Origin: Blastocatellia bacterium
GTDB lineage: Bacteria > Acidobacteriota > Blastocatellia > Chloracidobacteriales > Chloracidobacteriaceae
Assembly (NCBI GenBank): GCA_019695185.1
Contig: JAIBAN010000021.1
Coordinates: 1 to 64,000, forward strand
Length of the DNA stretch: 64,000 nucleotides
Reading direction: 5' to 3'
Shown one piece after another: positions 43,318 to 63,781 of the stretch. Position 1 is the first letter of the stretch. Every line of letters begins with the position of its first letter. The notes under the pieces were generated by a model, which was not told where the DNA came from, did not search any database, and worked only from the letters and a program-made list of their open reading frames with translations. Position numbers and translations under genes: made by a program.

Positions 43318-46300
43318 ATGTGGACCCGCAAAGCAACTGACATCACCCTGCATGTTCTTATTTTTCTCATCGCGGTTTTGTTTTTCACCTCAACCTGCTG
43401 GTCGCCTCCGGCGGTTTCACAAATTCAGAGCGAACCCTTCCCACCCTTTGAACAGGCGGTTCCTTTGCCGGACCAGGCTCCGGTCATTCCGTTTTTTCCC
43501 AACAGTGGAACTGCTGTCAGCCCTCGGCTTGATGCCCTGCCCCAATTTGAAGAGGAATTGAAAACCGACGACGGCACGGTTGAATCCGGCGCTTTGGGAG
43601 ACGGCCTGTTGGTGGTCAACCGCCTCACGCCGAGCGGTTACCCGGTCAAACTGGACCGCATCCGGATTCAGTGGGACGGCTTTTCCGGCCAGCCTTCACC
43701 CATCGGAGCACAGGTCCGCCTGCTGGCCTTTCTGGACCCGACCAGCGCCGGGCGTCCGGTGACGCCGGTTCAGTTTGTAGTTGACCAGACTGTGACCATT
43801 CCAAGTGTTGGAGGTTTTGTTGATTTTCCGCTTCCAAACGGTCCGACCCTGGCGGCAGGCGACCTCTATGTGGGGTTTCAGGCACCGAATCCGGCCACCG
43901 GCGTGATTTTCTCCGCCGATACCAACGGACCACAGCGCGAACGGGCGTTTTTTTCCATCAACAACGGAACCACCTTTGCCGGACCGTTAACCTTTTCCGA
44001 CGGACAAAAAGCCAACATCCTCATCCGGGCGGTGGTTTCGACCGTCAATTCGGGCACGACCGAAGAACTTCGCACCGACGATGGCACGATTGACGGGCGC
44101 GGCCTGCTCGACAACTCACTGCTGATGGTCAATCGCCTGACACCATCGAGTTATCCGGTGACGCTCCAGAAAGCCAAAATCATGTTTGTGGCCTTTCAGG
44201 GCCAGCCCAGCCCGATTGGCAAATCGGTCCAACTGGTGGTTTTCAGCGACCCGCAGGCCACGGGCAAACCACCGGCCAATCCAACCTTTCAGGTCCAGCA
44301 AAACGTGGTCATTACACGGGTCAACGACTTTATCGAATTTGACGTGCCGCCGGTATCAATCCCCAGCGGTGATGTGTATGTCGGATATGGCGTCGGGAAT
44401 CCGCATGACGGCGTGGGTTTTGGAGCCGACACCAACGGCACGCCGCAACACCGGGCGTTTTTCTCGACCAACGGCGGAGCTTCATTTTCCGGACCGCTTC
44501 AGCTTTCCGACGGCACCCAGACCAATCTGTTGATTCGGGCCATGGTCAGCCGGGGCGGGAGCGGCGGTGACACGCAAGCCCCAACCGTGCAGATTTTGGC
44601 TCCAAACGGCGGTGAGACGTTATCTGCCGGCAGCACCTTTGGCATTCAGTGGACTTCAGGCGACAACACCGGCGTCACAGGCCACAGTATCGCCCTTTCG
44701 ACCGACGGCGGAGCCACTTTCCCATCCACGGTGGCCAGCGGACTGGCCGGTTTCACCCAACGGTTTGACTGGACCGTTCCCACCACAGCAACGACCACAG
44801 GCCGCATCAAAGTCACGGCCAGTGACGCAGCGGGCAACAGCAGCTTTGACGTTTCCGACCAGAATTTCCGGATTTCAACCGGTGGCGGCGGCGACACCCA
44901 GGCTCCAACCGTCAATCTGTTGGTTCCCAATGGTGGTGAAACGCTGCTGGCCGGCAGCACTTTTGGCATTCAGTGGACTTCGGGCGACAACACCGGAGTG
45001 GCGGCGCATTCAATTACGCTTTCAACCGACAGCGGCGCGACCTTCCCAGCCAACGTCACCACCGGACTGGCAGGCTACATTCAGCGATTCGACTGGACCG
45101 TTCCCAACCCTGCGACGACCACGGCCCGCCTCAAAGTCACCGCCAGCGACGCAGCGGGCAACAGCGGCTTTGACCTTTCGGACGGAAATTTCACCATCAA
45201 AGCGGGCAATCCCAATCTGCCCACCGTTTCCATCAACACGACGACGCCAACCATCACCGAACTCGGCATAGCCAGCTTTGTGGTGAGCCGAACGGACAAC
45301 CTCGATACGGCGGTGACGGTGCGCTACACGGTGGGCGGTTCGGCAGTCAGCGGAACGGACTTCATTCCGCTCAAAGGGACCGTCACGATTCCAGCCAAAA
45401 TGGCCTCAACCGTCTTTGGCGTGATGCCGGTCAACAACCCGAAAATTGACCCGGACCGGACGATTGCCCTCACGCTGGCCAGCGATGTGGCCTATCGGAT
45501 TGGCGCACAGGCAACAGCCTCGGTCACGATTCAGGACAACGACAAAATGGGCAGCGGCACCTGTACGCCCGCGGAAGGCGGCAGCATCAACACGGAGGAC
45601 GGCGCGTCGGTGACATTGCCGCCGGGTTATGGCGACGGGCAGGCGACCGTCAGCCTGACGCGCATCGGGAAAGCCCCCAAGAACAAAGGCAGCACCGAGG
45701 TGCGGACGGTTTCGTGGACGTATCATTTGGGAATCAGCTACGTGGGTGCGTTTCCGATTGAATCGGAGATTGTGGTGACTGTGCCGCTGGTGGAAAAAGT
45801 CTTTCCCGCAGAATGGAACAGTTTGGGGTTTGAAGGCGTCTGCTACGACGAGAAAACCAAGACCTGGGTTACCATGGGGCGGAATCCGATTGCCGACCGC
45901 GAAAAAATGACGGTCACCTTCCTGCTTCCGATTGCCAAAATGGTCACGCAGGGAACCACTGCCAAAGAACGTTTTGGGCCATACCAGACGGGCTACACCA
46001 ATACCCTGGATTTCAAGGCAAACGGAGTCAATCAATCCCTCATGCGGCAGACCCAGGAGCCGGGTTCCAACTTCATTATCACCTACTATGAAGCAACTCC
46101 GGCCACCCAATACAGCGTGAAGGCCGACAAAAACTGGAACAACGGGACAAGCTGCTCCGGCACGACCGGCACGGCGGACACAAATTTTGTGCGCGACCTG
46201 GATGCGGTGCTCAACAGTTCCTACCGGTCACTGCTGGCCCTGCCACAGTCGCCTTTCGGTGAACTTTCCCTGCCTCAGAAAGCCAAAATCACCAAGGTTT

Positions 46301-48090
46301 CCGGTGGTGAAGCCGGGGAAAGCCCGCTCGGCGGGCCGCTCATTGTTTCAAATTCAAAGATGGAAAACTGCCAGGATTTGAAAAACACGGCCACGCACGA
46401 ACTAATCCATGTGTTTCAGGGCCAGTATTACAACAATCTGGCGAATGCCGGATACGCAGTCGCCAGTTCGACCTCGAACCAGTGGTTTATCGAGGCTTCG
46501 GCAAACCACTTTGCCGCGCTGGCCACGGGCATGGGCGATGCGCAGAAACGGACCTTCTATTCGGACCGCAATGGCAGCATTTCCGATTATCTGAGCGTGC
46601 CGATAACCTCCGGCAACGACAACAGTATGTATGCGGTGGCACATTTCCTTGACTGGCTGGCCGACCGCTACAGCTATGACATCGTGGGGGTGACCATCCG
46701 CAAGCGGAGCGAGTCGTTTTACGACCTGACCAACCTCAACAATGCCATTCGGGAATTTCAGACGGCTGCCGCAGACCCAACCAACCAACTCGGCCTGGCA
46801 GGCGCATTTCCGGAATATGTCAAATATGTGATGACCCATCCGGATGGGACAGCCGAGTTCAACCAGGACATCAAAAACGCGATGTACGGCAATACGTTCG
46901 GGAGCCAGTACACAACCCTTCCGGCGGGCCTCTTTACCGACAGCGCTGCGTTTATGACCTTGCAGAAACCCCTGCGGCCTTACTCGGCAGTCTACCTTTC
47001 CGTCGCGGCCAGAAACGCCAGCAACGCCCTCCTGGTGATTGACACCAGCCAATGTTCCGGTGCGCCGATGCAGTCGCTGACCTACGATTTGGTGGGGAAA
47101 ACGGAGGCGGCCTATACCAACCAAGACCCCGTTGACAAAAACAAAGTGCTGGGCGGTTCGACCCCGTGGACCGTGCCGGAGTTTGGCAAAGGACAGAAAA
47201 AAACCGACTTTGAGCAGGTGGTCATCAACGGCAGCCCGGTGACCGGAACGGTCAACATCAACTACTACATCCTGGTGCCCCCGAAAATCACCAAAGTTTC
47301 CCAAGGCGCGTTGCTGTGGGAATACAGCGGATTCGGCAAAGAGAAAGGCAAAATCCCGACTGAATTTCTCAAGGGTTATGACGTGTACAGCAAAACTCTG
47401 GGCAAAAAACTCAATTCGTCACCGGTTCCGCTCCAGACGAGCGGCGTGGAACAAAGCTTTTCGAGTGCGGACATCACGGGTGGCTCGACGGATGACTATA
47501 TCGTGACGATTGTGGACAAGTTCGACAACAGTTGGCCGCTTGCCGAAGTCAAACCGAAACTGGAAACGACCAAATACGCCACGTTTGACATGCGCGTCTA
47601 CGGGACGTTCCATTACTACTACTACGACGCATCGAAGCCGGGCGACCATGCGGACTACGACGGAGGCGGAGACTTCCAAATCCGGCTGGAGCGGGTGCCG
47701 ATTACCTGGACGGGCAATCTGCACTTCACCGGCACCCACAGAGCGACCAACGGAACCGAATATACGTTTGAGGGCACCGTGGACCCGGACGGTCACGGCA
47801 TGACCATCAGTGCCTCGCGGCATTACCTGAGCACCTATTACGACAGCTTCTGGGAAAGCAATGTGCGCAGCGCAGCCGATGCCGCCGGCAGTCTGACCAT
47901 CAAGGAGACCATTTTCTCAATCACGGATGACTTTTTCTGTAACGGTGGCACCGTCACCATCAACAGTGCGTCGTATGCGGCTTCGGCCACGTACGATAAT
48001 CCGAGTTCGGCCTATCAAAAGAACAGCCGGACAACCCTGGTTTCGCCCCGGACTGCCACCTGGAGGATTGATTTCATGGTGAATCCGTGA
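43318..48090 (+). CDS. giant exported protein with duplicated beta domains, Calx-beta and a HELIH metallopeptidase-like domain
   Basis: 1590 residues; a hydrophobic signal or anchor at 8-32. Two homologous units of about 160 residues (83-243 and 252-411, both with NRLTPSxYPVxL and GQPSPIG) are followed by two near-identical about 100-residue units (420-521, 527-628; PNGGETLxAGSTFGIQWTSGDNTG), a Calx-beta domain (635-743), a ZU5-like region (near 760-900) and a metallopeptidase-like segment with H1027-E-L-I-H1031 and a third ligand candidate E1059 (WFIEASANHF). The C-terminal 350 residues are unassigned. GGGAGG precedes the ATG. It is probably secreted and acts on polymers or surface proteins. 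Confidence 0.85.
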   Translation: MWTRKATDITLHVLIFLIAVLFFTSTCWSPPAVSQIQSEPFPPFEQAVPLPDQAPVIPFFPNSGTAVSPRLDALPQFEEELKTDDGTVESGALGDGLLVVNRLTPSGYPVKLDRIRIQWDGFSGQPSPIGAQVRLLAFLDPTSAGRPVTPVQFVVDQTVTIPSVGGFVDFPLPNGPTLAAGDLYVGFQAPNPATGVIFSADTNGPQRERAFFSINNGTTFAGPLTFSDGQKANILIRAVVSTVNSGTTEELRTDDGTIDGRGLLDNSLLMVNRLTPSSYPVTLQKAKIMFVAFQGQPSPIGKSVQLVVFSDPQATGKPPANPTFQVQQNVVITRVNDFIEFDVPPVSIPSGDVYVGYGVGNPHDGVGFGADTNGTPQHRAFFSTNGGASFSGPLQLSDGTQTNLLIRAMVSRGGSGGDTQAPTVQILAPNGGETLSAGSTFGIQWTSGDNTGVTGHSIALSTDGGATFPSTVASGLAGFTQRFDWTVPTTATTTGRIKVTASDAAGNSSFDVSDQNFRISTGGGGDTQAPTVNLLVPNGGETLLAGSTFGIQWTSGDNTGVAAHSITLSTDSGATFPANVTTGLAGYIQRFDWTVPNPATTTARLKVTASDAAGNSGFDLSDGNFTIKAGNPNLPTVSINTTTPTITELGIASFVVSRTDNLDTAVTVRYTVGGSAVSGTDFIPLKGTVTIPAKMASTVFGVMPVNNPKIDPDRTIALTLASDVAYRIGAQATASVTIQDNDKMGSGTCTPAEGGSINTEDGASVTLPPGYGDGQATVSLTRIGKAPKNKGSTEVRTVSWTYHLGISYVGAFPIESEIVVTVPLVEKVFPAEWNSLGFEGVCYDEKTKTWVTMGRNPIADREKMTVTFLLPIAKMVTQGTTAKERFGPYQTGYTNTLDFKANGVNQSLMRQTQEPGSNFIITYYEATPATQYSVKADKNWNNGTSCSGTTGTADTNFVRDLDAVLNSSYRSLLALPQSPFGELSLPQKAKITKVSGGEAGESPLGGPLIVSNSKMENCQDLKNTATHELIHVFQGQYYNNLANAGYAVASSTSNQWFIEASANHFAALATGMGDAQKRTFYSDRNGSISDYLSVPITSGNDNSMYAVAHFLDWLADRYSYDIVGVTIRKRSESFYDLTNLNNAIREFQTAAADPTNQLGLAGAFPEYVKYVMTHPDGTAEFNQDIKNAMYGNTFGSQYTTLPAGLFTDSAAFMTLQKPLRPYSAVYLSVAARNASNALLVIDTSQCSGAPMQSLTYDLVGKTEAAYTNQDPVDKNKVLGGSTPWTVPEFGKGQKKTDFEQVVINGSPVTGTVNINYYILVPPKITKVSQGALLWEYSGFGKEKGKIPTEFLKGYDVYSKTLGKKLNSSPVPLQTSGVEQSFSSADITGGSTDDYIVTIVDKFDNSWPLAEVKPKLETTKYATFDMRVYGTFHYYYYDASKPGDHADYDGGGDFQIRLERVPITWTGNLHFTGTHRATNGTEYTFEGTVDPDGHGMTISASRHYLSTYYDSFWESNVRSAADAAGSLTIKETIFSITDDFFCNGGTVTINSASYAASATYDNPSSAYQKNSRTTLVSPRTATWRIDFMVNP

Positions 48091-54710: not shown

Positions 54711-54878
54711 GGGTGACAGGATGACAAGATGACAGGGTGCTTTAATCCTGGTTTGGGGTGAATTGATGGGTCCAACCAAAAAACGGCAGCAACCTGTTTG
54801 GTTCTTCATATTCTTTTTATGTTGTGCCTTTGGTTACCTTGTCACCCTGTCACCCCTTCACCCCTTCACCGCTTCACG
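54711..54878. repeat. facing GGATGACA / TGTCACCC arrays, one arm inside a coding region
   Basis: The left arm (54711-54739) has about four GATGACAG-like units. The right arm (54838-54878), GTCACCCT and CTTCACCC units, lies within the first codons of the next gene and encodes VTLSPLHPFTAS in its signal region. Confidence 0.75.
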
Positions 54879-57800
54879 GCTTCTCCCGGTCACACAGGCC
54901 CAAAATACCATCACCATCCAGGGAGCCCTCAGCGACGAAACCAACCGTCCGGTTTCGGATGCACGGGTGACGCTTTCCGCACCAGGGCTGCCCTCCCAAT
55001 CCACCCTTTCCCAGGCAGACGGAAAGTTTTCTTTCACGGTTTCCCGCATCGGCAATTACGTTGTAACAGTTCGGGCCGATGGATACCGCCCGGCTTCACA
55101 ACAGGTCACCCTCACCAAACCCGAAGAAACCAGCGTTCAGCTTCCGCTGAAACCATTGGTGCCAAGTTCCCTGCACGTGACATTGGTGGATGTGCAAAAC
55201 CTGCCTTTGGCCGGTGGGATTGTGACGATTAAAAGCCCCAACGATGAAACGGTCCGGCGAGCCATCGAGGCCGGCCGGGGAGAGTATTATTTCGGACGGC
55301 TGTCGAGCGGTATTTATGAACTGAACGTTTCCGTGCCGGGTTATGAAACCCGCAATGTGGACCGGTTGTTGATTAACTCCGACAGCACCACCGAACAAAT
55401 CATCCCGCTGGCGCGGGTTTCCACCATTCCACTCGGCGAACGGCAGCGGGACCGTTCATTCACCACCCCGCGCCTGCCTTCAAATCAGGTTCTCTCAATC
55501 TATGCCGACCGGGATGCCAGTGTCTGGTTCGCCACCACTCAGGGGGTCTGCCGGTTCAACGGCCAGGATTTCGAATCATCGGAACGCACTGACACCCCGC
55601 TCAACGTGCTGGCACAAATGCGGGTCAATACCTTGCTGCGGGATTCCTATGGAGTGCTTTGGTTTGGTACCGAACATGGTGTTTTTCAGCAGGGTGATAT
55701 AGGCAAACCGGTCGAGGCCGTGGCCCCGCAGACCATCCTTCCCTCGCTTGATGTGTTGAGTCTCTGCCAGACCCGTGACCGCAGTCTCTGGATGGGAACC
55801 ACGCGGGGAGCAGTTCAATACCGGGACGGCAATCTGGTTTCCTGGATGAAGGCCCAACGTTTTACCGATGCACGGGTTTCCTGCCTGCTGGAATCACGGA
55901 CCAGCGGCAAATTGTGGGCAGCGACCGAAGAGGGGCTCTTCCGGTTAGACGGAGAATGGACCTTGGTCCCGCTTCAGAAACCCTCCGGCGGGCCGGTCAC
56001 CGGTGTCACCTGGTTGGCTGAAGATGCAAACGGAACGTTGTGGGTTTCGGCTGCTTCGGGCCTCTATTTTTTGCTTGACGACCAAGCCGTTCCGGCTGGG
56101 GTGCCAACTCTGGAAACAGCCATCTCCCGATTTGCAATTGACCATTTGGGTAATTTCTGGTGCGTCAAAAACGACCATGGCGTGGTGGTGTATGACGCCA
56201 AACGGCACGAAGCCACCAAACGCTTTCCCGGCAAACTCATCCTGGATGTGACCGCCGACTGGCTGACCAACGAACATATCCTGTCAGTGACTGCCGACCG
56301 GGAAGGGCAACTCTGGCTGGGGACCGATGCCGGAGCCATCCGGAACGACGTTTCCAGTTTCGTCACCTTTGACACCAGTCGCGGACTGACTGACAGTAAC
56401 GTCCGGGCCATCGCCGCCGGACCGGACCGGAATCGGCTCTGGATTGGCACCTCCCGGAGTGTCGAAGTCTTTGACGGGATTCGCTTTGAACCGCTGGAAG
56501 GATACCCGGTGGACACTCCCGTCCGTCGCCTGTTGGTGGACCGCGACAAAACCCTCTGGATTGCCTCAACGCGGGGCCTGTTTCACTGGGACGAGAAGCA
56601 GTTGACCCGTACCGATACCCAATCCCTGCCCAATCCTGATGTGCGGGATGTGATTTACGACGCCCGCCGGCCTGTCCTCTGGGTAGCCGGAGTGAATTCC
56701 ATCACTCCCATCAATCCCACCTCGCTCAAATCCGAAGGAGAACCGGTCCGCATTGACGGTGAAGTGCGCTATCTGCTGCAGAGTACCAACGGGCTGCTCT
56801 GGATTGCCACCGACCGGGGAGTCTTCCGGTATGACCCGGCCACGGCTGAACTGGTTGTGATTGGAACGGCCCAAGGACTGGAAAGTCTGGATGTGCGATG
56901 GATTCTGGAACAGCCCAACAGCAACCGCTTTTGGTTTGCGACCGGTCATGGGGTTGAATACTTTGACGGGAACCGGGTCCAGTCGAGCCTCATCAACAAT
57001 ACCACCGAAGGAAGCGACGTTCGGAGCCTCTTTCTGGACCGGGAGGGATATTTATGGGCTGGATTGGGCGATGGGGCAATCCGGAAGTTTTTGCCTGCGC
57101 TGCCAGGGCTTGAGCGAAATTACAAACGCGAACAGTACGACCTGCCGGGTTCCTCAATCCGGAGCATGGCCCAAACCGAAGACGGGGCCATGTGGTTTGC
57201 CACCGACCAGGGGTTGACCCGTCACTACCCCAACCGCACAATTCCTCAGATTGAAATCAGCCTGGAAATAGATGGTGCTGAAATTTTTCAGCCTTCCCCG
57301 GTCGAGGTCAGCGCCGGGAAACACCGCATCAAGTTTCGTTTCACCGGCATCAGCATGACGGGCAACGTCGCTTATCAGTATCGGCTGAACGGCAAAACTC
57401 CGGGTGAGTGGAAACTGGTGGACGCCGAACGTCCGAACAAAAACGAATTGCTTCGAACCGACCTGCCGCCGGGGGAATATCAGCTTGAAGTCCGCGCCAT
57501 CAACCGCGACTTGTATGGCTGGAACGGTTTGGCCACAAGGTTTATTGTCCGGGTGGACCGCCCGGTTTACACCAAGGGTTGGTTTTTGTTGTTGGGGGCC
57601 ACTTTTCTGCTTGGAACCGGTGGCAGTGTCTGGCTTATCCGGCGGCAGCAACGGCGCGAATACATTCTGCCGCCGCACCTGCAAACCTTTCAGCCAATTG
57701 AAACCAATCCGTTTATCGTCGGCAACCCGATTCGTCAGCCGGGCATGTTTTTCGGTCGGGAGGATGATTTCAATTATGTCCGGAAAAAACTGGAGGGCGC

Positions 57801-58887
57801 AGCCCAAGGCATCGTGATTGTCTTTTGCGGCGAACGACGGGCCGGGAAAAGTTCGATTCTGTATCAGATTCACAATGGGCGGCTGGGGCGGCGGTTTGTG
57901 CCGGTCTTTATTGACATGCAGGAAATGATTATCGAGAGCGACGGCGAACTGTTTCAGCGCATGGCCCGCCTGATTGCCGATGCCGTCAACCGCTCCATTC
58001 AGACGGCTGAAACCGGTGACTCGCTGGAAAACAAACCCGCGTTGGATGCCAAACGCTATGGCTTTACCAACCGGGAAAACAACCCTTTTGACCTCTTTCG
58101 GGAATTTATTGACGAGGTCTTGACGGAACTTGGCATGCGCCGCCTGGTGCTGCTGGTGGATGAATATGAACTCTTTGAAACCAAGGTCGAAAACAACAAG
58201 CTGAACAAAGAAATATTTGCATTTCTGGCCGGTTTGATTGATAGTCACGACCGTTTGTCCATGATCTTTACCGGATCGAAAAAGCTGGAACAGCGGGATC
58301 GTCGGTACTGGCGCGAAATGCTGCGCCGCTCCCTTTTCCGCAAAGTCGGATACCTGAGTGAACGCGACACCGAGCGCCTCATCATCGAACCGGTCAAAGA
58401 CCAGGTGGTTTATGGTCGCGGCATGGTCCGTGCCATCTGCCGATTGACCGCCGGACAGCCCTTTTACACCCAGGTCATCTGTCAAAACATCGTTGATTAC
58501 CTCAACGAAGAAAAACGCAATTTCATCCTTCGTTCCGATTTGCAGGCCATTATCGCCGAGATTGTGGATAACCCCCTGCCCCAGATGATCTATTTTTGGG
58601 AAGGTCTGAGCGATGATGAAAAGCTGGTTTTGTCGCTCCTGGCAGAAATCCTGCCGGACCACCAGGGCAAGGCGACAGCCGCCAAACTGGCGCGGGTCAT
58701 TTTGCGGAATGAGTATCCGGTGACCCTTTCGGAAAACTCGATTCGACTGACGTTGGAGGAACTCTACCGCAGCGAAATCCTGACCAAAGACGACGAGGCT
58801 TTTGCCTACCGGATTGACCTCAAACGCCACTGGATTAAACGCAGCCATAGCATCTGGCAGGTCGTGCGCGAAGTGAAAACGCTCTAA
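54766..58887 (+). CDS. transmembrane sensor: carboxypeptidase-regulatory, propeller and Y_Y_Y domains fused to a P-loop ATPase
   Basis: 1373 residues from the ATG at 54766 (GGGGTG upstream). Order, numbered from the TTG at 54763: signal region (12-47), two carboxypeptidase-regulatory-like domains (50-130, 135-215), a two-component-regulator-type propeller (240-825; DASVWFATTQGVCRF, GVLWFGTEHGVF, QLWLGTDAGAI), a Y_Y_Y domain (830-930), one membrane helix (938-960), then a cytoplasmic ATPase: FFGRE at 995, Walker A GERRAGKSS at 1023-1031, Walker B LLVDEYE with D1133-E1134, a possible sensor FTGSKKLEQ, and a C-terminal winged-helix-like part. The outer half is that of hybrid two-component sensors, but the kinase is replaced by an ORC/STAND-like ATPase. 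Confidence 0.85.
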   Translation: MGPTKKRQQPVWFFIFFLCCAFGYLVTLSPLHPFTASRLLPVTQAQNTITIQGALSDETNRPVSDARVTLSAPGLPSQSTLSQADGKFSFTVSRIGNYVVTVRADGYRPASQQVTLTKPEETSVQLPLKPLVPSSLHVTLVDVQNLPLAGGIVTIKSPNDETVRRAIEAGRGEYYFGRLSSGIYELNVSVPGYETRNVDRLLINSDSTTEQIIPLARVSTIPLGERQRDRSFTTPRLPSNQVLSIYADRDASVWFATTQGVCRFNGQDFESSERTDTPLNVLAQMRVNTLLRDSYGVLWFGTEHGVFQQGDIGKPVEAVAPQTILPSLDVLSLCQTRDRSLWMGTTRGAVQYRDGNLVSWMKAQRFTDARVSCLLESRTSGKLWAATEEGLFRLDGEWTLVPLQKPSGGPVTGVTWLAEDANGTLWVSAASGLYFLLDDQAVPAGVPTLETAISRFAIDHLGNFWCVKNDHGVVVYDAKRHEATKRFPGKLILDVTADWLTNEHILSVTADREGQLWLGTDAGAIRNDVSSFVTFDTSRGLTDSNVRAIAAGPDRNRLWIGTSRSVEVFDGIRFEPLEGYPVDTPVRRLLVDRDKTLWIASTRGLFHWDEKQLTRTDTQSLPNPDVRDVIYDARRPVLWVAGVNSITPINPTSLKSEGEPVRIDGEVRYLLQSTNGLLWIATDRGVFRYDPATAELVVIGTAQGLESLDVRWILEQPNSNRFWFATGHGVEYFDGNRVQSSLINNTTEGSDVRSLFLDREGYLWAGLGDGAIRKFLPALPGLERNYKREQYDLPGSSIRSMAQTEDGAMWFATDQGLTRHYPNRTIPQIEISLEIDGAEIFQPSPVEVSAGKHRIKFRFTGISMTGNVAYQYRLNGKTPGEWKLVDAERPNKNELLRTDLPPGEYQLEVRAINRDLYGWNGLATRFIVRVDRPVYTKGWFLLLGATFLLGTGGSVWLIRRQQRREYILPPHLQTFQPIETNPFIVGNPIRQPGMFFGREDDFNYVRKKLEGAAQGIVIVFCGERRAGKSSILYQIHNGRLGRRFVPVFIDMQEMIIESDGELFQRMARLIADAVNRSIQTAETGDSLENKPALDAKRYGFTNRENNPFDLFREFIDEVLTELGMRRLVLLVDEYELFETKVENNKLNKEIFAFLAGLIDSHDRLSMIFTGSKKLEQRDRRYWREMLRRSLFRKVGYLSERDTERLIIEPVKDQVVYGRGMVRAICRLTAGQPFYTQVICQNIVDYLNEEKRNFILRSDLQAIIAEIVDNPLPQMIYFWEGLSDDEKLVLSLLAEILPDHQGKATAAKLARVILRNEYPVTLSENSIRLTLEELYRSEILTKDDEAFAYRIDLKRHWIKRSHSIWQVVREVKTL

Positions 58888-62403: not shown

Positions 62404-62531
62404 GTCCTGGGAGTCAAAACCAGGTGACAAGTGACAGGTGACAAGTGACAAGAAAAAGTCCTATCACTGTTTACTTGTCACTGTTTACTTGTCACCGTTT
62501 ACTTCTTCAGACTCCCAAGACTCTCAAGACT
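62404..62531. repeat. nested inverted-repeat element, copy 3
   Basis: A short outer left arm (62404-62415) and right arm (62508-62531), with long inner arms: GTGACAA/GTGACAG units at 62422-62452 and TTGTCACTGTTTAC units at 62463-62498. Outer arms are reduced and inner arms expanded relative to copies 1 and 2. Confidence 0.9.
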
Positions 62532-62548
62532 GGATTTGGAGGTTTTCT

Positions 62549-63781
62549 GTGTCCGAACTTCCCGCAATCGTTGTTTTATTTCTCTCATTTTTACCCTGTC
62601 TGATTTGGCTGGTCTTTTTTTACGTGCAGGACTGGTACGACCGGGAACCACTCTGGCTGATTGGGCTGACCTTTGTTTTTGGCATCATTTCAACCGTCGG
62701 AGCATTGGTGGGAAATGAAGTCGGGGGCGCGATTGTCCGGGCCATTTTTGGACGAAACAACATTGTCGCAAATTTTGTCGAATACTTTTTTGTAGTGGGG
62801 CCGGTGGAGGAAACCGTCAAAATGCTGGCCGTCCTGGTTTTGGCCTATCGGAGACCGGAGTTTGACGAACCAGTGGACGGAGTGATTTACAGTGCGGCGG
62901 CGGCTTTGGGCTTTGCGGCGGCGGAAAATGTGTTGTATGTCGGACAGTTTGGGATTGGTGTTTTGACCTTGCGGGGACCGATGTCCAATGCCGGGCATGC
63001 GTTCTTTTCGGCTTTCTGGGGTTTGGCTATGAGTCGGGCCAAGGCGGCTCCCAACATCGGCGGCAAGAAATTCCAATGGATCGCCTCAGGGATTTTGGTC
63101 GCAGCCCTGCTTCATGGATTTTATGACTTTGTGTTGAGTCTGCGTCTGCCCGGTGGTGTCGCCGTCCTGTTTATTCTGGTTTTTATGGCAGGGATGTTTG
63201 CTGTCGTTGAATTTATGACCCTGCGGGCAGTGGCCAAATCCCCCCGCCGCGAAGGAACCCAATTGCTTCAGTTGCCGGTGCCTTGCTCCAACTGCGGAAC
63301 TCCGGGACTGCCGGGCATGCCCTGTGTGCGGTGCCACGCCATCATTACCCAGTCGGTGCAGAATGAAGCCCGGTTTTGCCTGCGTTGCGGCAACCTTTCC
63401 CAGCCCGGTGCCGTGCAATGCCGGGTCTGCGGAATGAGCCTGTTGAAAGCTCCAACCGCCCCGCCCCAGACCGACCGGCCACATTTTGTCCGAATTTACC
63501 CGAATGGAGCCGAGGAAGTTGCTTATGTGATAGACCAAATTGAAGCCTCCATTGGTAAAACCCTCGACAATCCGTTTGTGATTGAGGATGACTCGGTTTC
63601 CAAACGCCATGCCCGTGTCTTTTGGCACCCAAACATCGGAGCCCATGTTATTCAGGACCTGGGCAGCACCAACGGAACCTTTGTCAACGGTCAACGGGTG
63701 AGCGAAGCGGCAGTTTATAACGGTTTTGAAATTCGCCTGGGACAAACCCGCTTTGTTTACCGGGCAACGTGGCGAGCCTAA
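62549..63781 (+). CDS. PrsW-type intramembrane protease with zinc ribbons and FHA domain
   Basis: 410 residues from a GTG at 62549 with GGAGG six bases upstream. About seven membrane helices contain the PrsW metal-site residues E87-E88-xx-K91, H150 and H189 (HGFYD, D193). Two zinc ribbons follow (C246, C249, C259, C262 and C277, C280, C291, C294), then an FHA domain (about 320-405) with SKRHAR at 351-356 and GSTNGTFVNG at 372-381, which reads phosphothreonine. PrsW enzymes cut membrane-bound anti-sigma factors; a soluble FHA domain on the inner side could link cleavage to Ser/Thr kinase signalling. The fusion order is unusual. Confidence 0.88.
   Translation: MSELPAIVVLFLSFLPCLIWLVFFYVQDWYDREPLWLIGLTFVFGIISTVGALVGNEVGGAIVRAIFGRNNIVANFVEYFFVVGPVEETVKMLAVLVLAYRRPEFDEPVDGVIYSAAAALGFAAAENVLYVGQFGIGVLTLRGPMSNAGHAFFSAFWGLAMSRAKAAPNIGGKKFQWIASGILVAALLHGFYDFVLSLRLPGGVAVLFILVFMAGMFAVVEFMTLRAVAKSPRREGTQLLQLPVPCSNCGTPGLPGMPCVRCHAIITQSVQNEARFCLRCGNLSQPGAVQCRVCGMSLLKAPTAPPQTDRPHFVRIYPNGAEEVAYVIDQIEASIGKTLDNPFVIEDDSVSKRHARVFWHPNIGAHVIQDLGSTNGTFVNGQRVSEAAVYNGFEIRLGQTRFVYRATWRA

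Follow-up and report, generated by a model that had tools for sequence, protein, structure and literature searches.

A propeller-type membrane sensor with an inner STAND/ORC-type NTPase from a Blastocatellia bacterium, a probable receptor for a soluble nSTAND2-kinase

The window, a stretch of 64,000 nucleotides from the genome of a Blastocatellia bacterium, contains on its forward strand an open reading frame for a membrane sensor of 1373 amino acids (54766..58887, start at 54763 or 54766), as determined by ORF calling and Pfam analysis; all features given below lie on the same strand. According to Pfam, hydropathy and fold matches, the protein consists of a signal peptide, two CarboxypepD_reg domains, a Reg_prop propeller, a Y_Y_Y domain, a transmembrane helix and a STAND/ORC-type NTPase. 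The signal-peptide-like hydrophobic helix (aa 11–29, 54796..54852; hydropathy) is followed by two stretches matching CarboxypepD_reg in Pfam (E 1e-25), the first at aa 50–128 (54913..55149) and the second after it. The propeller region extends approximately over aa 236–830 (55471..57255; Pfam E 3e-42, seven stretches), and the Y_Y_Y domain covers aa 865–915 (57358..57510; Pfam E 2.2e-8). Hydropathy analysis located the sole transmembrane helix at aa 940–958 (57583..57639), with the basic sequence RRQQRRE next to it on the inner side, in agreement with the single membrane helix of the initial annotation. The outer half thus shows the arrangement of Reg_prop/Y_Y_Y periplasmic sensors, namely a propeller followed by Y_Y_Y and a transmembrane helix. 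Pfam searches with E values of up to 1 yielded no match to HisKA, HATPase_c or a response-regulator domain, which rules out a histidine kinase remnant, and because the HisKA/HATPase_c transmitter is missing, we also rejected an identity as hybrid two-component histidine kinase. NCBIfam and PADLOC returned only weak or off-target matches for the sensor. A look for the same architecture in other genomes, as proposed earlier, showed that the identical domain order recurs in numerous genomes of the class, with 59–80% identity, and is therefore not due to chance.

The inner half of the sensor matched ATPase_2/AAA_22 in Pfam with E values of about 1e-5, and alignments, an AlphaFold2 model and fold matches define an input NTPase of family A1/A3 at aa 973–1372 (57682..58881). 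It contains an FFGRE motif at position 995, the Walker A motif GERRAGKSS (aa 1022–1030, 57829..57855) and the Walker B motif LLVDEYE (aa 1129–1135, 58150..58170), all of which had been recognised before, with residue numbers that were off by one. The G, RR, G and K of Walker A and the DE of Walker B are invariant in 39 of 39 aligned relatives, ruling out the degenerate inner half that had been considered as an objection. An arginine at aa 1192 (58339..58341), located at the end of helix alpha4 and the start of beta5 in the model and present in 36 of the 39 aligned sequences, is a candidate arginine finger. The model itself (pLDDT 92.8, pTM 0.87) shows an NTPase core, a helical lid and a C-terminal winged helix (aa 1283–1360, 58612..58845), the latter delimited by the secondary structure of the model and by fold alignments reaching the C terminus. 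All elements of a STAND/ORC-type NTPase (P-loop core, Walker A and B, helical lid, winged helix) are therefore present. The best solved folds were 2qen (Z 23), archaeal ORC2 1w5t (Z 20.5) and SSO1545 2fna (Z 20.4), followed by Cdc6/Orc1 and NLR/CED-4 at Z of about 16; a sequence search for solved relatives of the sensor gave no significant match. The archaeal ATPase_2 or SSO1545-PABY2304 ATPases and Orc1/Cdc6 are the nearest solved folds (Z about 17–23 over 325–354 residues), but these proteins are soluble, stand-alone or DNA-binding and share only 10–17% identity with the inner half of the sensor. Pfam, motifs, structure prediction and fold matches consequently bear out the initial annotation, in which an ORC/STAND-type NTPase, fused to an outside sensor, takes the place of the histidine kinase.

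A second gene accompanies this sensor in its distribution. It codes for a protein without transmembrane helices which combines an nSTAND2 domain (E 5e-88, 295 bits, above the 24-bit cut-off) with a Pkinase domain (E 1e-47), and in the window's genome it is found on another contig than the sensor (G000:C212:45337-47364). The kinase half has kept the catalytic lysine (VAIK) and the HRD, DFG and SPE motifs, as expected of a Hanks-type Ser/Thr kinase, and shares 36–38% identity with PknB-type Hanks kinases. The model of the full-length partner was of only moderate quality (pLDDT 77, pTM 0.48), which limits its value for the arrangement of the domains. While the NTPase of the sensor scored only 12.3 bits against nSTAND2 (PF20702; E 0.1), below the curated cut-off of 24 bits, an hhalign comparison of both NTPases indicated homology (probability 99.8, E 1.4e-27), and the Walker motifs are invariant in both families. 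Judged from these profile comparisons, the NTPase of the sensor represents a sister family, homologous to the nSTAND2 NTPase of the partner.

Both genes were scored in the same set of 396 genomes of the phylum, and each of them was present in 24: 23 genomes contained both, one only the sensor, one only the partner and 371 neither (Fisher p 5e-35 by genome, 4e-13 by family). There is one copy per genome, kept within families rather than patchy. Across phyla, loci were selected for their similarity to the sensor NTPase, which biases this sample to that family, whereas linkage to the partner was no search criterion. The partner was found within 3 kb of the sensor in 53 of these 73 loci, always on the same strand (53 of 53), and in 37 of the 42 loci with good flanks. 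The pair is unlinked in the window's genome and at loci L071, L074, L075 and L079; in four unlinked Blastocatellia cases, a second match of the type and length of the partner is present elsewhere in the genome. Tree distances of sensor and partner correlate with r 0.81 (n 32, permutation maximum 0.25), a value not corrected for shared species history. Among related pairs, the input domains comprise Reg_prop, Peripla_BP_6, TPR, PEGA, PD40 and multi-TM modules, and the outputs a kinase at either end, Guanylate_cyc, Sigma54_activat with HTH_8, and Trans_reg_C (OmpR-type HTH), with the NTPase pair as the only constant element. Spirochaetales loci contain a middle gene of 305 aa without Pfam match.

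Taken together, the domain order, the intact motifs and homology of the two NTPases, the intact kinase motifs, the linkage and co-occurrence of the genes and the exchange of inputs and outputs suggest that paired ATPases replace the histidine kinase in a little-known, modular route of transmembrane signalling with two-component-like logic. The gene of the window is probably the receptor half of a two-protein relay, in which pairing of its NTPase with the nSTAND2-kinase switches the kinase. The propeller and accessory domains would bind a ligand on the outer side of the inner membrane, which probably means the periplasm. The single transmembrane helix would relay the change to the membrane-tethered NTPase inside, which may be loaded or released by the signal. 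This NTPase would then pair, via its NTPase surface, with the homologous soluble nSTAND2 NTPase fused to the Hanks-type kinase. The kinase would be switched by this pairing, or by co-oligomerisation, under the control of ATP binding and hydrolysis, and would phosphorylate cytoplasmic targets. Physical contact of the NTPases, the direction of signalling, ATP-gated activation, the ligand and the substrates are what we infer here. An earlier suggestion of signal transfer to an ATPase switch without a kinase thus holds for the sensor itself, but a kinase appears to be involved on the separate partner. More tentatively, the pairs might represent a general signalling class parallel to two-component systems in many bacterial phyla, with the receptor NTPase as transmitter, the soluble nSTAND2 output NTPase as receiver, and exchangeable modules on both sides: a propeller, a periplasmic-binding protein, PEGA, TPR or multi-TM for sensing, and a Ser/Thr kinase, a nucleotide cyclase, a sigma-54 activator or an OmpR-type HTH as output.

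Because nSTAND2 was defined in a predicted counter-invader system of two genes which both code for NTPases (eLife 2021, PMC8195603), the pair may alternatively be a membrane-bound variant of that operon, in which the propeller senses invaders or damage to the envelope, and a ring of NTPases sets off a kinase response that is defensive and possibly suicidal. The distant pairs of Chloroflexota, which carry EAD7 or CHAT domains, point the same way, and both observations count against the relay. STAND folds also resemble NLR resistosomes, and some Ser/Thr kinases are antiphage proteins whose PADLOC models match the partner; however, these matches span only the generic kinase domain, and PADLOC did not match the sensor. 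The locus showed no phage match and only three weak plasmid matches as signs of a mobile element, there is one copy per genome, retained within families, the neighbours are mostly housekeeping genes, and the other outputs, sigma-54 activators and OmpR-type HTH proteins among them, are ordinary regulators, which makes a conflict system unlikely.

The unlinked genes in the window's genome count against the relay as well. Together with the four other unlinked loci, they would fit a sensor NTPase acting alone, e.g., by forming homo-oligomers whose winged helix binds DNA or some other effector, with the nSTAND2-kinase as a separate system of the same lineages. We regard this as very unlikely in view of co-occurrence in 23 of 25 genomes, the common strand of all 53 neighbouring pairs from many phyla, and the restriction of the unlinked state to a few relatives with the partner elsewhere. 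That the sensor and the neighbouring genes jointly control the biosynthesis of polysaccharides or the envelope, along the lines considered possible in the initial annotation, seems most improbable. A sugar transferase gene (Bac_transf) is located 61 bp upstream of the sensor and is also found upstream in the closest genome, G051, and a PrsW-FHA gene follows 3.6 kb downstream; FHA domains bind phospho-threonine. But neither neighbour is conserved beyond G051, and the sensor adjoins unrelated housekeeping genes in other genomes, e.g., gyrB or PPDK_N. An envelope or polysaccharide operon is therefore unsupported.

The nearest described kind to the relay is the predicted two-gene nSTAND2 conflict operon, both genes of which contain nSTAND2-type STAND NTPases that presumably assemble into a hetero-multimer (eLife 2021, PMC8195603, Fig. 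6C). The present pair likewise consists of two genes with a STAND NTPase in each; they adjoin at 53 of 73 related loci but not in the window's genome, and the sensor NTPase scores below the nSTAND2 cut-off. That operon is mobile and has one eroded NTPase and fusions to GT4 or HEPN effectors, whereas here the Walker motifs of both NTPases are intact, one protein is a transmembrane receptor and the other carries a Ser/Thr kinase, the outputs are other domains, and families retain the pair. In iSTAND ternary systems (eLife 2020, PMC7159879), some members of which have membrane segments with PEGA or other envelope domains, an inactive STAND module is accompanied by MoxR-vWA partners; the NTPase described here is intact, and we noticed no MoxR-vWA pair in the neighbourhoods examined. 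The outside half is like that of hybrid two-component systems and of further sensors with Reg_prop and Y_Y_Y, but the output is a STAND NTPase with a separate NTPase-kinase. Propeller sensors with outputs other than histidine kinases are already known, e.g., GGDEF proteins of Xanthomonas (PMC6637768), and full-text searches of the open-licence literature did not turn up any account of a propeller-NTPase sensor that has an NTPase-kinase as its partner. The kinase half of the partner resembles PknB-type kinases in fold and sequence. PknB itself spans the membrane and has PASTA repeats, while the partner kinase is soluble and fused to the nSTAND2 NTPase. If the relay is correct, many bacteria would signal across the membrane via two paired STAND-type ATPases, a switch fold common to plant and animal immune receptors, instead of histidine-kinase phosphotransfer, and soluble Ser/Thr kinases and nucleotide cyclases of poorly known phyla would gain a defined upstream receptor. 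The nSTAND2 pairs, which the papers retrieved describe only as predicted conflict systems, would shift towards ordinary environmental sensing. The conserved neighbours of the partner, VitK2_biosynth and Ldh, were set aside as apparent housekeeping genes.

The open reading frame at 54766–58887 (+) is complete and genuine, and its 1373-aa product contains, according to Pfam, two CarboxypepD_reg domains, a Reg_prop propeller (E 3e-42), a Y_Y_Y domain and an inner half weakly matching ATPase_2/AAA_22. Hydropathy analysis indicated a signal-like N terminus and a single internal transmembrane helix at residues 940–958, followed by basic residues. This confirms the propeller-NTPase fusion claimed in the initial annotation, whose motifs are present but were numbered off by one residue; as it had also stated, there are no histidine kinase parts, judging by a Pfam scan of the whole protein. 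AlphaFold2 modelled the inner half from 39 sequences (pLDDT 92.8, pTM 0.87) as an NTPase core with a helical lid and a C-terminal winged helix, in agreement with the proposed ORC/STAND-like architecture. Structural candidates were listed with Foldseek; the top solved matches were PABY2304 (2qen, Z 23), archaeal ORC2 (Z 20.5) and SSO1545 (2fna, Z 20.4), followed by Orc1/Cdc6 (Z ~17); next, at Z ~16, came RPP1, CED-4 and resistosomes. The Pfam nSTAND2 profile scored 12.3 bits, which is under the cut-off and indicates only remote likeness. The Walker A and Walker B residues are unchanged in 39 of 39 aligned relatives, showing that the inner half is not degenerate there. Residue 1192, an Arg in 36 of these 39, is a candidate arginine finger, placed at the corresponding AAA+ position from secondary structure only.

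The full domain order recurs across many genomes of the class (NTPase identity 59–80%), the named records being mostly Blastocatellia/Acidobacteriota MAGs. Remoter relatives share 36–48% identity and come from Glassbacteria, Calditrichota, Gemmatimonadota, Krumholzibacteriota, Spirochaetales, Latescibacterota, KSB1 and further groups. By neighbourhood reading, most sensor relatives are adjoined by a second gene, whose product of 640–690 aa combines an nSTAND2 NTPase (E 5e-88) with a Ser/Thr kinase that matches PknB structures and retains the catalytic motifs. Comparison with hhalign shows this NTPase family to be homologous to that of the sensor (99.8%, E 1.4e-27). In the genome of the window, this partner lies on a different contig from the sensor (G000:C212:45337–47364) and adjoins another Ser/Thr kinase, 551 aa long and bearing SH3_3 at its C terminus (L049:6579–8234), for which no counterpart clustered beside the partner among the related genomes examined.

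Co-occurrence was analyzed by searching one set of 396 genomes from the phylum for both genes, using strong-hit cut-offs of E < 1e-50 (sensor) and E < 1e-30 (partner NTPase). Both were present in 23 genomes and neither in 371; the single sensor-only genome (G172) is an assembly in 1130 contigs, and the single partner-only genome (G164) is 82% complete. Fisher p was 5e-35 when genomes were counted, 4e-25 for genera and 4e-13 for families, the last count taking out shared ancestry in part only. Sensor NTPases of > 150 bits were collected at 73 loci from several phyla; the partner lay within 3 kb in 53 of these, always on the same strand (53/53), and it was linked in 37 of the 42 loci that had 2.5 kb or more of sequence on each side. 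Four of the five unlinked well-flanked loci are from Blastocatellia, and their genomes hold a second match of partner type and length elsewhere. Tree distances of the two NTPases (n = 32) correlated with r 0.81, against a maximum of 0.25 in permutations, uncorrected for species history. In L053:10026–11914 and L064:9563–10507, which clustered together, a gene assigned by eye as DNA adenine methylase-like stands between sensor and partner, accompanied in L053 by an additional 315-aa gene, as if a restriction-modification unit had been inserted into the pair.

The NTPase pair is a constant core around which inputs and outputs are exchanged. Sensor-type NTPases are joined to Reg_prop (window, L085), Peripla_BP_6 (L058, L059, L062), TPR (L080, L082), a PD40 propeller (L127), 7–9 transmembrane helices (L060, L061) or a C-terminal PEGA domain after a transmembrane helix (L087, L088, L104, L109). 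The outputs fused to the nSTAND2 NTPase are a C- or N-terminal kinase, a nucleotide cyclase in L087, both of these domains in L081, a sigma-54 activator plus HTH_8 in L109 and an OmpR-type HTH in L123; more distant pairs have EAD7 (L117) or CHAT (L116). With unscanned loci typed by homology to scanned ones, the sensor tree needs six type changes for inputs and six for outputs. The N-terminal kinase, permuted relative to the Blastocatellia partner, was seen in L066:2788–4653 (= L095), L081, L082, L083, L084 and L088. Seven Spirochaetales loci (L087, L089, L093, L101, L102, L103, L106) contain three consecutive NTPases, namely a PEGA sensor NTPase, an nSTAND2 on its own and a further nSTAND2 that has ~250 aa at its N terminus (by Pfam a nucleotide cyclase in L087), with a gene of ~305 aa in between that gave no Pfam match in L102. 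Two archaea-labelled records (L119, L145; Methanomassiliicoccales, Thermoplasmata) have a distant sensor-type NTPase and a nearby nSTAND2-type gene.

Most likely, the sensor gene provides one side of a two-NTPase relay that is conserved and modular. A ligand outside would alter the membrane-linked NTPase, which would then pair with the soluble nSTAND2 NTPase of the partner and thereby switch the fused Ser/Thr kinase; we consider this the most likely course, with contact, direction and substrates inferred. The initial annotation was right that the outside sensor is joined to an NTPase in place of a histidine kinase but missed the partner kinase. The constant pair resembles the transmitter and receiver of two-component systems in logic, not by homology. 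Propeller sensors with non-kinase outputs are already known, and, of the systems described so far, a two-gene nSTAND2 operon predicted in eLife 2021 (PMC8195603) comes closest; one of its NTPases is eroded, and its effectors are GT4 or HEPN. There is a fair chance that the relay is a class distinct from those described. No description of the receptor/kinase form (propeller-NTPase plus nSTAND2-kinase) was found in the literature searched, and its priority is unproven because subscription papers were outside the reach of the search.

The cell-envelope response suggested initially is not supported: the neighbours behind it are conserved in one close genome at most. Comparison with phages and plasmids gave no sign of mobility of the pair, and PADLOC no sign of a catalogued defence system. 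One unconserved neighbour, at 62438–63781, encodes a fusion of a PrsW-family intramembrane protease and an FHA domain; it could recognize phospho-Thr produced by a Ser/Thr kinase. Elsewhere in the window, 43318–48090 encodes a secreted-looking protein of 1590 aa in which repeated modules, a Calx-beta-like region and a HELIH zinc-protease-like motif were recognized by eye.
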